NCBI GenBank assembly: GCA_000997945.1
Contig: LCCP01000017.1
Span: 1 to 40,185, forward strand
Direction of reading: 5' to 3'
Origin: Parcubacteria group bacterium GW2011_GWC2_42_12
GTDB lineage: Bacteria; Patescibacteriota; Patescibacteriia; Patescibacteriales; GWC2-42-12
Length of the DNA stretch: 40,185 bases
Part shown: positions 7,087 through 12,638 of the stretch, in pieces
Layout: each line of letters opens with the position of its first letter
Position numbering within the stretch: position 1 is the stretch's first letter
Translations under genes and position numbers: made by a program
Notes under the pieces: generated by a model
The model's database searches: none
Told to the model about the DNA's origin: nothing
What the model saw: the letters and a program-made list of their open reading frames with translations, nothing else

Positions 7087-7152
7087 GTATCGGCGTATCT
7101 GAAGTTTTAATGCTTTTTTATTTTTCTCTAATTTTAGATATTATTTTAACTC

Positions 7153-7180
7153 TTGACAACCCTGTCAAATCTGTTATACT
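7153..7180 (+). promoter_or_regulatory. sigma70-like promoter of ncRNA copy 1
   Basis: TTGACA (7153-7158), 16 nt spacer, TATACT (7175-7180). Confidence 0.75.
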
Positions 7181-7183
7181 GAT

Positions 7184-7391
7184 AATGTCGAATACGGATT
7201 CTACTGAACTCCCGAAGTCCGAGACCCTAAGGGGGATCGGGCTTTTTGTTTTGTAAAATTTATGATAAAATTTTTATGTGGAGTTTAAGGGGCTACCTCA
7301 CGGTGAGGAATCCGTATTCGACATTCGGATAGAGGGGTTCAATACCCCTTGGCTCCACGTCAGAAACCATCTCAAAAGCGAGGTGGTTTTT
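7184..7391 (+). ncRNA. Candidate structured RNA (array RNA) copy 1 with tRNA/tmRNA-like 3' domain
   Basis: AATGTCGAATACGGATTC (7184-7201) perfectly complements GAATCCGTATTCGACATT (7308-7325). T-arm-like AGGGG-TTCAATA-CCCCT (7333-7349), GTGGAG...CTCCAC (7278-7283 / 7353-7358), terminator at 7364-7391. Second copy at 9836-10042 has compensatory changes. Confidence 0.7.
7364..7391 (+). terminator. Intrinsic terminator of ncRNA copy 1
   Basis: AAACCATCTC-AAAAGC-GAGGTGGTTTTT. Confidence 0.75.
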
Positions 7392-7483
7392 GATTTGCCA
7401 AAAAATAAAATTAATTTTCAATAAACAGAAAAATTATAAATTTATTCTCATCTGCTCCGCCGGATACTCGTTGTTATATGATG

Positions 7484-7929
7484 TAAAAAACTAATAAATT
7501 ATTTAACTCTCAAAAAATCCCAAAAGTCGTATAGCACTATGCCAATATAAAGTAATATAACGAATCCAAAAATTATAGCATAGAAAGAGGGATAAATTAT
7601 TTTAACTGCCAGCACAATACTTTCAAGCAGTAATGCTATTAGTAGTATAAAAGTAAAAGTCGCACCATGTGAAAGCAGCTTTCCTGCCATTGAGTCAAGT
7701 TTGCTTTTTTCATAAGTAAAGGCAAAGTTTGCGAAACATACTGTTACAAGCAACATACTGATTATAAGAAGAAAGTCGCTTATTTGTCCCAGTCCAATTT
7801 GATTTATAGAGTTCGCAATAACAGGCCACAGGGAAGCTGCGATTATAACAATAATCGCGTTTTTTATTATATTTTTCTTAAAGGAATTTAATACCATAAT
7901 TTTTGTGGTTAAAATTTATTAGTTTTTTA
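7484..7929. repeat. Cassette-specific inverted repeat enclosing gene 7499-7897
   Basis: TAAAAAACTAATAAATT (7484-7500) versus AATTTATTAGTTTTTTA (7913-7929), perfect 17 bp. Confidence 0.75.
7499..7897 (-). CDS. Hypothetical multi-pass membrane protein (cassette gene)
   Basis: ORF with four hydrophobic segments (IIVIIAASLWPVI, FLLIISMLLVTVCFANF, FTFILLIALLLESIVLAV, YAIIFGFVILLYIGIVL). Confidence 0.6.
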   Translation of the reverse strand: MVLNSFKKNIIKNAIIVIIAASLWPVIANSINQIGLGQISDFLLIISMLLVTVCFANFAFTYEKSKLDSMAGKLLSHGATFTFILLIALLLESIVLAVKIIYPSFYAIIFGFVILLYIGIVLYDFWDFLRVK

Positions 7930-7930
7930 T

Positions 7931-8102
7931 TTCACATAATGGCTTCGGAATAAGCGAAGTGGCCGAAGGAATTTCGTAGCGGAGCGGAGAAATGCCGAAA
8001 GGCCATTTTGCGTATTCCGAGTTATGCCATTATGCCGAAAAGGAGCGAGCGACCCGAGCCGACCGCAGGAAGGCGAGGGGGAGCGAGCGATTTCGGCATA
8101 AC
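7931..8102. repeat. Long palindromic array repeat, copy 1
   Basis: TTCACATAATGGCTTCGGAATAAGCGAAGTGGCCGAAGG...TTATGCCGAAAAGGAGCGAGCGACCCGAGCC...GGAGCGAGCGATTTCGGCATAAC, repeated almost verbatim at 9557, 10697 and 11517. Confidence 0.93.
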
Positions 8103-8196
8103 GTATCGGCATATCTGATGTTTGCCGTAGCGTAGCGGAGGCAAATATGGGTAGAGGCTTTTGTAAAAAGCCGTAACCAGATATGCCTTGTTATAT
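8096..8196. other. attC-like palindromic site 2 (compact, 101 bp)
   Basis: GCATAAC (8096-8102)-GTAT-CGGCATATCTG (8107-8117) ... CAGATATGCC (8178-8187)-TT-GTTATAT (8190-8196). Inner hairpins TTTGCC..GGCAAA and GGCTTTTTAC-type. Confidence 0.7.
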
Positions 8197-9565
8197 GATG
8201 TATGCTTTTCTTTTTGTTCCGCCTTAGCGGAAACACTTTTCTGTAATGAACAAATTTTATTTTTGTCTTGGCGAGGGGCAGAGGGGCTTGGGGGTGAATG
8301 CCCCGAAGCTAAGACTCCTTATTCTGCGCGTTCAATGATGTTAACTATCCCATTATTTGCGTCCAACTCAACCAAATCGTCGCCTCGTAAAATTTTAGTA
8401 GCGTTTTTTGTGCCAACAATACATGGTTTTTTCATCTCTCTGGAAACAATAGCTGCATGGCAGATAATACCACCTTCATCCGTAACGAAAGCCGCAGCTT
8501 TAGTCATAGCTGGCATATAGGCTGGCGTGGTCATTGGAGAAACCAAAATGTCTCCCGGTGTTATTTTGTTTAATTGCTCTCGATTCATTACCACTTTTAC
8601 TTTACCCCGAGCTTGCCCAGGACTTGCCGAAAACCCTTTCAATTGAGTTGCGGTAGATAATATTTTCTTATCAATCAATTTATAACCGCGAACTTTTAAA
8701 ACAGTCGAAATTTCTTTCTTTGTAAACAACTGATTGGCGAAATAAGCACAACCGTCATTGCGTTTTTTAAACTCTGAAAAATTATATTTCTGTTTAGCTA
8801 TGACCGCTTTTTTTAATTCTTGAATAAGAAAAAATTTCATTAAATTTTTAGGCCAGCTTTTTTCTTTAGCAATCATGTGTAAATATTGGTATATCAGATC
8901 ACAAGCATCGTCAAAAAAAGTGTCGCCTTGGCGTAATTTAGTTGCTTTGTCTAAAATCTTTTTGGAAAATAATGATTTTTTTTCTGTTTTACCGCCATTT
9001 CATTCCAAGTCACGCACCAATAAGCCGGAATGAGGCCCGCCATGCCCTCTATAAATAAATTTTGGGTCTCTTTTATTTTATTGACTGCTTTTAGGCTTTT
9101 CACTGAGCTTATTGGTTGCACTTTTTCTTTCTTTAGCTTCTTGCCTATCTTGATATACCTATCAAATTCAGCTAAAAGACGCTTGGTGTTTTTGGGCTCT
9201 TTTGCCCAGCGTGATATGGCCTTAGGTAGTGTGTCAAAGAAAAGCTGAGTTGCGCGCCAACTTTCAACAGCGCCATTTTGAAAAATATAAATTGGTTCCG
9301 GAAATTTAACTTCAAAATCAAAAACTCTAGGTATAGAATCAGTAAAATATTTATACCATGCGGCAATCAAAATAAACGGAGCATCACGTGTCATGACTTT
9401 TTCGTATTTGATGATTTTTCTTGTCATATTAAAATCGTTTTCTGAGTGAGGTCACGAGCGAAGAAAACACCATATACACCCCTCTATAAAAATTAAAAAT
9501 AAAATTTGTCCATTATAGAAAAGTGTTAGGTATTAGCCGTAAAAAGAAAAGCATATTTCATATAA
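8191..9565. repeat. Cassette-specific inverted repeat enclosing the PEP-utilising-domain gene
   Basis: TTATATGATGTATGCTTTTCTTTTT (8191-8215) versus AAAAAGAAAAGCATATTTCATATAA (9541-9565), 23 of 25 positions complementary. Confidence 0.75.
8319..9427 (-). pseudogene. PEP-utilising enzyme mobile-domain protein, split by a frameshift at an 8-nt homopolymer
   Basis: ORF 8951-9427 and ORF 8319-8876 join in sense across T8 at 8976-8983: ...MAVKQK / KSLFSKKILDKATKLRQGDTFFDDACDLIYQYLHMIAKEKSWPK. GFSASPGQARGKVKVV...GDILVSPMTTPAYMPAMTKAAAFVTDEGGIICHAAIVSREMKKPCIVGT is the phosphohistidine domain. Confidence 0.75.
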
Positions 9566-9738
9566 TGGCTTCGGAATAAGCGAAGTGGCCGAAGGAATTT
9601 CGCAGCGGAGCGGAGAAATGCCGAAAGGCCATTTTGCGTATTCCGAGTTATGCGAAGTCGCGCCATTATGCCGAAAAGGAGCGAGCGACCCGAGCCGACC
9701 GCAGGAAGGCGAGGGGGAGCGAGCGATTTCGGCATAAC
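9557..9738. repeat. Long palindromic array repeat, copy 2
   Basis: Near-identical to 7931-8102, with extra GCGAAGTCGC between the two hairpins. Confidence 0.93.
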
Positions 9739-9804
9739 GTTTCGGCGTATCTGAAGTTTTAATGCTTTTTTATTTTTGTCTAATGTTAGATACTTTTTAA
9801 TCTA

Positions 9805-9832
9805 TTGACAAGCTGGCTTGTTGTGTTATACT
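9805..9832 (+). promoter_or_regulatory. sigma70-like promoter of ncRNA copy 2
   Basis: TTGACA (9805-9810), 16 nt spacer, TATACT (9827-9832). Confidence 0.75.
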
Positions 9833-9835
9833 AAT

Positions 9836-10042
9836 AATGTTAAGTGCGGAATCTGTTGAACTCCAAAGTCCGAAACCCTAACGGGGATCGGGCTTTTTGT
9901 TTTGTAAAATTTATGGTAAAATTTTTTTGTGGAGTTGAGGGGCCACCTCATGGTGAGGGTTCCGCACTTAACATTCGGAATTGAGGGGTTCGATACCCCT
10001 TGGCTCCACCTCAGAAACCATCTTAAAAGCGAGGTGGTTTTT
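9836..10042 (+). ncRNA. Candidate structured RNA (array RNA) copy 2
   Basis: ATGTTAAGTGCGGAATC (9837-9853) pairs with GGTTCCGCACTTAACAT (9958-9974). T-arm AGGGG-TTCGATA-CCCCT (9984-10000), GTGGAGTT (9929-9936) with GGCTCCAC (10002-10009), terminator AAACCATCTT-AAAAGC-GAGGTGGTTTTT. Confidence 0.7.
10015..10042 (+). terminator. Intrinsic terminator of ncRNA copy 2
   Basis: AAACCATCTTAAAAGCGAGGTGGTTTTT. Confidence 0.75.
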
Positions 10043-10098
10043 GATTTACCGTATTGAAAAATAAAAAAGCATTAAAATTTGCGTGAGCGAGCGTTAAG

Positions 10099-10677: not shown

Positions 10678-10696
10678 TTAAGAAATTTCTGGCTAT

Positions 10697-10869
10697 TTCA
10701 CATAATGGCTTCGGAATAAGCGAAGTGGCCGAAGGAATTTCGTAGCGGAGCGGAGAAATGCCGAAAGGCCATTTTGCGTATTCCGAGTTATGGCCATTAT
10801 GCCGAAAAGGAGCGAGCGACCCGAGCCGACCGCAGGAAGGCGAGGGGGAGCGAGCGATTTCGGCATAAC
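10697..10869. repeat. Long palindromic array repeat, copy 3
   Basis: Near-identical to copy 1; ends TTTCGGCATAAC. Confidence 0.93.
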
Positions 10870-11043
10870 GTATCGGCACATGCGAAGTTGCGCCGTGAAT
10901 TATTGAATTAAATGTTAATTATCGCCTATCTTGATTATATCACTAAACTTGCCATTTCGTCAGCGCAATTTGGGTTGAGGAAATTTTGCACTCCTTGAAA
11001 TATAATTGCGCAAAATTTCTGAACCGCATGTGCCGTGTTGTGC
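10863..11043. other. attC-like palindromic site 4 (181 bp)
   Basis: GCATAAC (10863-10869), CGGCACATGCG (10874-10884) ... CGCATGTGCCG (11025-11035), GTTGTGC (11037-11043). Inner hairpin GAAATTTTGC ... GCAAAATTTC. Confidence 0.7.
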
Positions 11044-11105
11044 GATGTTTTAAAAAACAAACATTCTTTATAAAAAAGAGCCTTTTTGAAATTTTTTGGC
11101 TGGGC

Positions 11106-11193: not shown

Positions 11194-11394
11194 ATGGAAG
11201 AGCTGACGATCGGAACTAAAGTGGTGTTGAATGTTGGTGGCAAAGAAAGTATCGCAAGAGTCACCGACAAAAACGGTACTATGATGGAGCTGACAACAGA
11301 GAGTGGCGAAACTTTGTTCATGGAGCTTCAGAAAGCAGGGGATGGTTGGGAATTGGTCCCCAACACCCGTATGGTGAAGATGACTACCCTGTAG
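11194..11394 (+). CDS. Hypothetical 66-aa protein (cassette gene)
   Basis: AGGAGG upstream of ATG at 11194, strong promoter, downstream hairpin terminator. MEELTIGTKVVLNVGGKESIARVTDKNGTMMELTTESGETLFMELQKAGDGWELVPNTRMVKMTTL. Confidence 0.75.
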   Translation: MEELTIGTKVVLNVGGKESIARVTDKNGTMMELTTESGETLFMELQKAGDGWELVPNTRMVKMTTL

Positions 11395-11459: not shown

Positions 11460-11516
11460 TTTTCCAAAAAAATTTCAAAAAGGCTCTATAAAAAGATAAA
11501 ATGTTTATTTTTTAAA

Positions 11517-11705
11517 ATTTCGTACAATGGCTTCGGAATAAGCGAAGTGGCCGAAGGAATTTCGCAGCGGAGCGGAGAAATGCCGAAAGGCCATTTTGCG
11601 TATTCCGAGTTATGCGAAGTCGCGCGAAGCCATTATGCCGAAAAGGAGCGAGCGACCCGAGCCGACCGCAGGAAGGCGAGGGGGAGCGAGCGATTTCGGC
11701 ATAAC
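11517..11705. repeat. Long palindromic array repeat, copy 4 (recombinase-proximal)
   Basis: Near-identical to the other copies; ends TTTCGGCATAAC at 11705. Confidence 0.93.
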
Positions 11706-11816
11706 TCTCTATTATACGAACAATTTTTTAGAATTTGCTTTAGTTTGTATATTATGCGAAATTATGATATTATTTATTTAAAATAATCTCGCTAATATTA
11801 TTATAGTTTAAAATCT

Positions 11817-12638
11817 ATGAAATTGGAAGAGCTTTTAAAAAGAATAGAAAACGAACTTAAACTTAGAAACTATAGCCGAAAAACTATTAAGAGCTATTTA
11901 ATTTGCCTGGCGGACTATTTTCGCTATATTAAAAATGTCGTAAAAGATCCTGATATCGGCCTGATTAAAAGATACCTTCTGGAAAAACAGGATAGGGGGC
12001 AGGCCTCGCAGACCATCAATCTTTATTTAAACGCCATAAAATATTTCTACCGAGAGATTTTTAAAAATAATGTTCCCCTGGATATTAAATTTGCCAAAAC
12101 GGCGAGCAAGTTGCCCGTCGTCTTGTCTAAGAAAGAAATAGAAAAAATAATTGATTCAATCAGCAACAAAAAACACATGCTACTTATCGCTCTCTCGTAT
12201 GGGGCGGGTTTTAGGGTAAGCGAAGCCATAAATTTAAAAATAAAAGATGTGAATTTGGCTGAATTAACCATTCATCTTAAGGGCGCTAAAGGTAATAAAG
12301 ACCGGCTAACGATTTTTCCCGAAAGAGTCAAGGCGGGGCTGGCTGAAATTATGGCCTTGCGCGATAAAAACGATTTTGTCTTTGCCAGTGAACGGGGCGG
12401 GCATTTAACCGAGCGGTCGGCGCAAATGGTATTTGAAAATGCTTTGAAAAGATGCCATATTAATAAAGAAGCCACTTTTCATTCCTTACGGCATAGTTTT
12501 GCCACGCATCTCTTAGAAAACGGCGTGGATGTGCGCTATGTTCAGGAACTCCTGGGCCATGCTAATATTAGGACTACGCAAATTTATACCAAAGTGACTA
12601 ATCCAAGTTTAAAAAAGATAAAGAGTCCGCTGGAATAA
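11817..12638 (+). CDS. Tyrosine recombinase/integrase, Xer/IntI-like
   Basis: SYGAGFRVSEAINLKIKDV, TFHSLRHSFATHLLENGVDVRYVQELLGHANIRTTQIYTKV contain the R...HxxR...H...Y catalytic set. No obvious IntI-specific insertion before the HSLRH box. Confidence 0.92.
   Translation: MKLEELLKRIENELKLRNYSRKTIKSYLICLADYFRYIKNVVKDPDIGLIKRYLLEKQDRGQASQTINLYLNAIKYFYREIFKNNVPLDIKFAKTASKLPVVLSKKEIEKIIDSISNKKHMLLIALSYGAGFRVSEAINLKIKDVNLAELTIHLKGAKGNKDRLTIFPERVKAGLAEIMALRDKNDFVFASERGGHLTERSAQMVFENALKRCHINKEATFHSLRHSFATHLLENGVDVRYVQELLGHANIRTTQIYTKVTNPSLKKIKSPLE

Follow-up and report, generated by a model that had tools for sequence, protein, structure and literature searches.

Tandem modules of a tRNA-like RNA and a covarying antisense RNA in Paceibacteria, a candidate RNA toxin-antitoxin or conditional mistranslation system

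The closest known systems to the locus analysed here are the allo-tRNAs and the type VIII RNA toxin-antitoxin pairs. The former (Mukai et al., 2017), as treated in a review (PMC7609411), carry serine- or alanine-type acceptors, including those with G3.U70, on bodies with noncognate anticodons, an arrangement set against the background that neither AlaRS nor SerRS needs the anticodon (PMC7609411). They also include molecules with a tRNASec-like D-arm and a long variable arm, comparable to types C and D of the module described below, and a subset from Edaphobacter with an extra acceptor/D-arm loop and G-1, which resembles the leader and internal acceptor of the module and has been tied speculatively to transposons or toxin-antitoxin systems (PMC7609411). 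In the type VIII pairs CreTA and SdsR-RyeA, as far as the accounts cited here describe them, an RNA toxin and an RNA antitoxin are encoded next to each other, and some CreT toxins target translation through the sequestration of tRNAs (PMC10767807; PMC9458426, PMC8501985).

The stretch of DNA analysed, referred to as the window, is 40,185 nt of contig LCCP01000017.1 from Parcubacteria group bacterium GW2011_GWC2_42_12, and it contains the module in two copies, at 7126-7392 and 9779-10043. We lean towards the reading that each copy encodes a missense tRNA that would be silenced by its own leader and by an antisense RNA, constituting a type-VIII-like RNA toxin-antitoxin pair or a conditional mistranslation module. 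A preliminary description of part of this region had recognized a tRNA-like domain and a competing stem; the internal acceptor with its leader decoy, the combination of alanine or serine identity with mismatched anticodons, and the 54-member family with its several types were absent from it.

Module architecture and the tRNA-like body

Each copy has the tandem order P1, RNA1 (about 60 nt), T1, P2, RNA2 and T2, all on the plus strand. Copy 1 begins with an AT-rich upstream element containing the palindrome CTAATTTTAG (7126-7145), followed by P1 (TTGACA-16-TATACT, 7153-7180), by RNA1 segment 1, which pairing and covariation mark as antisense to the RNA2 anticodon arm (7184-7201), and by the intrinsic terminator T1 (7215-7248), recognized from its sequence and folding and by inspection of relatives. 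P2, an extended -10 (TGATAAAAT, 7263-7271), lies about 6 nt upstream of the RNA2 5' leader (GTGGAGTTTAA, 7278-7288), and the tRNA-like body (7289-7357), placed by its sequence and the start of the Rfam tmRNA model match, is followed by T2 (7364-7392), which is kept in relatives. The corresponding features of copy 2 are the AT-rich element with CTAATGTTAG (9779-9796), P1 (9805-9832), antisense segment 1 (9836-9853), T1 with segment 2 (9866-9899), the extended -10 of P2 (TGGTAAAAT, 9914-9922), the leader (GTGGAGTTGA, 9929-9938), the body as placed by the Rfam tRNA model and by sequence (9939-10008) and T2 (10015-10043).

T1 and T2 each consist of a hairpin and then a T run, and P2 reads TGnTAAAAT in both window copies. 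P1 is within one mismatch of TTGACA/TATAAT in 34 of 52 elements as against 3 of 520 shuffles, P2 is within one mismatch of TGnTATAAT in 40 of 52 as against 37 of 520, and TAATnTTA is present 5' of P1 in 18 of 52. We infer transcription from these promoters and terminators, which are consensus matches. The two strands of the long stem discussed below are separated by an intrinsic-terminator-like hairpin and by P2, so that the 18 bp partner of RNA2 appears to belong to a unit of its own further upstream. A leaderless peptide beginning at the ATG at the start of RNA1 was considered and rejected, since relatives, L098 and L003 for example, do not keep it.

The body of RNA2 in copy 1 has the acceptor GGGGCTA/TGGCTCC with G3.U70, a D-arm-like hairpin, an anticodon arm (7310-7330), a T-arm (AGGGG-TTCAATA-CCCCT, 7333-7349) and the discriminator A73; copy 2 has GGGGCCA/TGGCTCC, again with G3.U70 and A73, an anticodon arm at 9960-9980 and a T-arm at 9984-10000. 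With G.U counted, GGGGCTA (7289) and GGGGCCA (9939) each form seven of seven pairs with TGGCTCC, directly before A73, and the tmRNA model matches start at the same bases, 9939 and 7289. The 81 nt RNA folds 2.9-3.4 standard deviations better than dinucleotide shuffles. A GG in the D-arm and a T-loop motif are required for the tRNA elbow; the D-arm-like hairpin of RNA2 has the GG, and the T-loop reads TTCRANN in both window copies and in the majority of relatives, and TGCAAGT in L107 and L142.

These observations support the earlier suggestion of a tRNA mimic with a T-arm and an acceptor, and covariance-model searches found the element in many other genomes. The 8 bp between GTGGAGTT and GGCTCCAC that had been taken for an acceptor-like helix at 7278-7358 can indeed form, and an acceptor does exist, but GTGGAGTT proves to be a competing 5' leader that pairs with the acceptor 3' strand together with A73 and C74, and the true 7 bp acceptor is internal, beginning at 7289 and 9939. 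Of the 54 elements collected, 50 have a leader helix of 7 bp or more, as against 1 of 101 ordinary tRNAs from the same genomes. At minimum free energy, the acceptor and T-arm form together in 42 of 54 bodies when the leader is omitted, and in 8 of 54 when it is included.

The proposal that the domain is a tmRNA 3' end did not hold: the copies score 21.8 and 14.7 bits against RF00023, for which the cut-off is 47 and the genome's own tmRNA scores 114.7, and ARAGORN reports no tmRNA there. A permuted or two-piece tmRNA was also discarded, RNA2 being complete in itself. Nor are the window copies ordinary tRNAs as defined by the RF00005 cut-off and a 7 nt anticodon loop, since that loop has 11 nt, copy 2 (9939-10008) scores 23.9 bits against a cut-off of 29, and copy 1 is not listed; ARAGORN run on them with relaxed thresholds or introns returned only noise. 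Some relatives are near-canonical and are called as tRNAs by ARAGORN.

Antisense pairing of RNA1

RNA1 begins with a segment that can pair with the anticodon loop of RNA2 and the 5' strand of the anticodon stem. Across 20 distinct relatives of the same type, this 18 bp long stem is 93.3 % paired and has changes on both sides at 14 of 18 pairs, against a shuffled mean of 9.3; its covariation score of 0.568 compares with 0.243 for shuffled alignments, a control that leaves relatedness in, and with at most 0.109 for slid partners, a control that retains kinship and still falls far under the real pairing. The 5 bp local arm, which is the competing anticodon stem, is 95 % paired in the same 20 relatives with both-side changes at 4 of 5 pairs, so that the exchange of ATCCG-11nt-CGGAT (7310-7330) for TTCCG-11nt-CGGAA (9960-9980), previously described as compensatory between the two copies, extends to the wider set. 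The two helices are mutually exclusive, and because both-side changes occur at 14 of 18 and 4 of 5 pairs, both are evidently conserved under selection, as judged from the alignments. Thus two exclusive folds co-vary, as a two-state switch had implied, but not within a single RNA, since RNA1 and RNA2 look like separate promoter/terminator units. Homologues that keep the long stem and lack the T-arm, named beforehand as what would speak against the tRNA-like domain, did not appear.

Cognate RNA1:RNA2 helices have a median of 15 bp, whereas the median for noncognate combinations is 8 bp and about 1 % of 2862 such pairs reach 15. By the same measure, ordinary tRNAs have a median of 8 bp, one of 100 reaching 12, and none of the 34 ordinary host tRNAs that were examined has such an antisense, bar one 14 bp match to a D-arm. 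Cofolding of the window pairs favours the cognate partner, with ddG values of -15.5 and -18.8 kcal/mol against -4.0 and -9.8 kcal/mol after swapping.

The cofolds of the window pairs also place RNA1 on the leader while the T-arm forms, as would be expected if RNA1 were an activator whose binding to the anticodon arm, joined by binding to the leader in the window copies, freed the acceptor from the decoy and allowed tRNA-like folding and processing. We consider this very unlikely, since segment 1 spans the anticodon loop itself across types, and the RNA1-leader pairing is missing in some relatives. That pairing is AACTCC/GGAGTT, noted previously; by inspection it is present in both window copies and their close relatives without extending to every relative. 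A second, weaker antisense segment lies near T1, with the anticodon 3' strand or the variable arm as its partner in several types; in copy 1 it is TCCGAG, the 5' arm of T1, for which the 3' strand of the RNA2 anticodon stem is the alternative partner. In type C the second segment is weak, being equalled by 29 % of noncognate pairs.

Selection of the elements relied in part on upstream complementarity of 11 bp or more, which biases the share of elements that have an antisense, and completeness is therefore better judged on the strong model hits. Those without a full match are two remnants (L128 and L200), one with a shortened RNA1 (L188, with RNA2 intact and segment 1 reduced to 8 bp) and two at contig edges (L107 and L191). 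L128 and L200 are the two RNA2 copies wholly without RNA1, and both are degenerate. Conversely, L094/L262 (G007:C59) has an intact RNA1 of the window copy 2 type (99 % identical) with no RNA2 adjoining; it is the sole stand-alone RNA1 found, and its genome (G007) also holds a complete module like copy 1. An intact solitary RNA1 and broken solitary RNA2s are in line with a toxin-antitoxin-like relationship, the counts of such orphans being tiny.

Element types, predicted identity and genomic setting

Covariance-model searches collected 54 elements in the class Paceibacteria, which fall into several types that differ in sequence and share a common architecture; the structure of model R2 is partly mis-registered, and while it recovered true relatives, its bit scores were not used for structure. 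Type A is that of the window, with an 11 nt loop, type B has a D-arm closer to the canonical form and a loop mostly of 9 nt, and type C has G73 and a long variable arm. Some elements (L158, L186 and L199) have a canonical 7 nt anticodon loop, and L129 and L160 are class-II elements with G3.U70 and the anticodon GCG. L217 (G426:C29) and the plus strand of L187 (G384:C20) are divergent modules with G3.U70 and the unusual, ambiguous anticodon regions TTATCAC and TTGCCAT respectively, which suggests that there are more types than the three models sampled.

G3.U70 is present in 36 of the 39 elements with A73, the remainder being L127, L195 and L215 (the last through mis-registration), and in 10 of 101 control tRNAs, eight of which are tRNA-Ala. 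All 15 elements that lack A73 combine G73 with a long variable arm, as in serine tRNAs. The predicted acceptor identity is thus alanine (G3.U70, A73) or serine (G73, long variable arm). Centred on U33, the anticodons read UGA/CGA (Ser), UAA/UAG (Leu), UGG (Pro), GCG (Arg) and GAU (Ile), with CGA and UAA in the window copies, and an alanine anticodon appears in none of the elements. ARAGORN, unprompted, called 26 of the 54 as tRNAs, nearly all from the internal acceptor, and assigned them serine, isoleucine, leucine, proline or arginine anticodons, never alanine. Acceptor identity and anticodon are thus apparently mismatched in the U33-centred reading, the reading frame being uncertain in loops of 9-11 nt: a shift of one base would turn several elements, L101 (GGC) and L197, L201, L214, L215 and L219 (AGC), into cognate alanine tRNAs, and the serine-type L159 is read by ARAGORN as UGA, which would be cognate.

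The increased size of the anticodon loops and the non-tRNA fold seen with the leader bound would also suit a mimic that does not decode, whether an uncharged decoy or sensor for RNase P, EF-Tu, tRNA-cleaving toxins or phage enzymes, or a two-state switch on a single transcript, and soil allo-tRNAs with the extra acceptor/D-arm loop were not charged by Escherichia coli enzymes in vitro (PMC7609411). We regard this as quite unlikely, since G3.U70 with A73, or G73 with a long variable arm, is kept across differing types, and conservation of identity elements in types of different sequence points to charging; the single-transcript version has P2, directly 5' of the leader, against it.

Both window copies are embedded in an integron-like cassette array of repeats, in a Moranbacteria-type genome, next to an Xer/integron-type tyrosine recombinase (11817-12638). 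The recombinase scores above the cut-off of NF040815 (site-specific recombinase/integron integrase) and below that of the stricter TIGR02249, so that the array is a candidate rather than an established integron. A repeat of about 190-210 bases occurs in four copies that are 79-98 % alike (7929-8123, 9555-9759, 10695-10890 and 11517-11726), with which small ORFs alternate, and a 25-base inverted repeat (96 % complementary; 7102-7126 and 10056-10080) flanks the stretch with both RNA modules, a similar sequence also occurring 5' of copy 2 (around 9753). Two adjacent minus-strand ORFs, 8319-8876, which has a PEP-utilising mobile domain, and 8951-9427, may be one frame-broken PEP-synthase-like gene within the array, and a cassette at 11194-11394, enclosed by an inverted repeat (11048-11097 and 11467-11516), carries a small ORF of about 66 aa on the plus strand together with a ribosome-binding site and a promoter-like sequence of its own. 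This location would be expected of a feature that acts in the DNA itself, either inverted repeats used by the array recombinase or decayed tRNA pseudogenes. We give that explanation scarcely any credence in view of the compensatory changes in two competing helices, the G.U-tolerant pairing, and the promoters and terminators, and because many other elements are situated away from arrays, between unrelated housekeeping genes such as rpoC, topA, pheT and tig.

No conserved protein neighbour was found among the element neighbourhoods examined. Telomerase, retron and bridge RNAs were dismissed as candidates, there being no partner protein and the neighbours being unrelated housekeeping genes. At one chromosomal site shared by two sister species (L101 in G053 and L147 in G052), with flanks 88-90 % identical, one species has a type A element and the other type C, with the breakpoints in the shared promoter and terminator, as would be expected if types are exchangeable modules. 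The family is patchy across the order and class, and among 384 genomes sampled from the phylum, no true member from beyond the class turned up with models R1 and R2, a match there (L260) being an ordinary tRNA. Copy 2 is unmatched in the phage and plasmid collections, as is a type A pattern in the viral contigs.

The anatomy also fits with a regulated and useful tRNA, in which RNA2 is a special isoacceptor, freed under certain conditions for adaptive mistranslation or special messages, and RNA1 and the leader provide control without addiction. The presence of several types per genome (two of type A and two of type C in the host) and the canonical 7 nt loops of L158, L186 and L199 accord with this. 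The patchy distribution within the class, with none outside it in the sample, looks mobile rather than housekeeping, and the exchange of types at a single site and the cassette-like array location likewise argue against a regulated useful tRNA, which we consider unlikely.

Proposed mechanism and comparison with known systems

Under the missense tRNA reading, RNA2 would be a precursor tRNA with an alanine-identity acceptor (G3.U70, A73) and, in the window type, a non-alanine anticodon loop. Once matured and charged by AlaRS, it would insert alanine at serine-, leucine- or valine-type codons and so poison translation, or might alternatively decode out of frame because its loop has 11 nt. Two brakes are envisaged: the leader, on the acceptor 3' strand, A73 and C74, would hold the precursor in a non-tRNA fold, and RNA1, from its own promoter, would pair over 15-19 bp with the anticodon loop and 5' stem strand and open the anticodon stem, the RNA1:RNA2 duplex probably targeting RNA2 to RNase III. 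Loss of RNA1, through loss of the module, transcription shut-off or phage, would then release the tRNA. It seems about evenly balanced whether, more broadly, these are all-RNA addiction or defence modules whose effector is a missense tRNA charged by AlaRS or SerRS, silenced by a decoy leader and an antisense RNA, and swapped by type as cassettes among the Patescibacteria.

Some familiar RNA classes share single features with the module. Its T-arm and acceptor-like helix recall tmRNA, and an RNA that pairs with an anticodon beside a terminator recalls the T-box leaders; the latter were rejected, as there is no Rfam T-box match even at a relaxed threshold and no downstream synthetase gene, the downstream unit being a tRNA-like RNA. 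At cut-off, Rfam finds no family across the window besides the ribosomal protein L10 leader (RF00557, 29694-29814, 50.7 bits), an ordinary regulatory element. Type I toxin-antitoxin pairs also have an adjacent toxin transcript neutralized by a small antisense RNA with its own promoter, the toxin being a peptide; the module involves no ORF.

RNA2 resembles the allo-tRNAs in combining predicted serine or alanine acceptor identity with a noncognate anticodon, and its charging is likewise predicted. It differs in its acceptor branch, since allo-tRNAs are defined by 8/4 or 9/3 branches (PMC7609411) and RNA2 has an internal acceptor of 7 bp and a T-stem of 5 bp (7/5). Allo-tRNAs are reported in Clostridia, Proteobacteria and Acidobacteria, not in Patescibacteria, and neither an antisense RNA gene nor a leader decoy nor a dual promoter is mentioned in the review (PMC7609411); our search of the open-access literature brought up no account of a tRNA of this kind with a dedicated antisense RNA.

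Type VIII pairs consist of an RNA toxin that inhibits growth and an RNA antitoxin that neutralises it by acting on the toxin RNA or its gene. The module has adjoining units, 15-19 bp of covarying complementarity and a promoter for each RNA, and RNA1 may act on RNA2. In the material cited here, CreT is not known as a tRNA, CreA guides Cascade and represses transcription, and SdsR and RyeA are encoded on opposite strands (PMC10767807; PMC9458426, PMC8501985). The antitoxin candidate of the module is instead a same-strand neighbour that is antisense to an anticodon arm, and the candidate toxin is itself a tRNA. If this is correct, the module would represent a new protein-free toxin-antitoxin principle in which the genetic code serves as a weapon or a switch, anticodon-blind synthetases being turned against the cell with a short antisense RNA as the safety catch. 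It would also offer a possible explanation for metagenomic alanine and serine tRNAs with the wrong anticodons, and a function for RNA cassettes in the mobile arrays of ultra-small bacteria.
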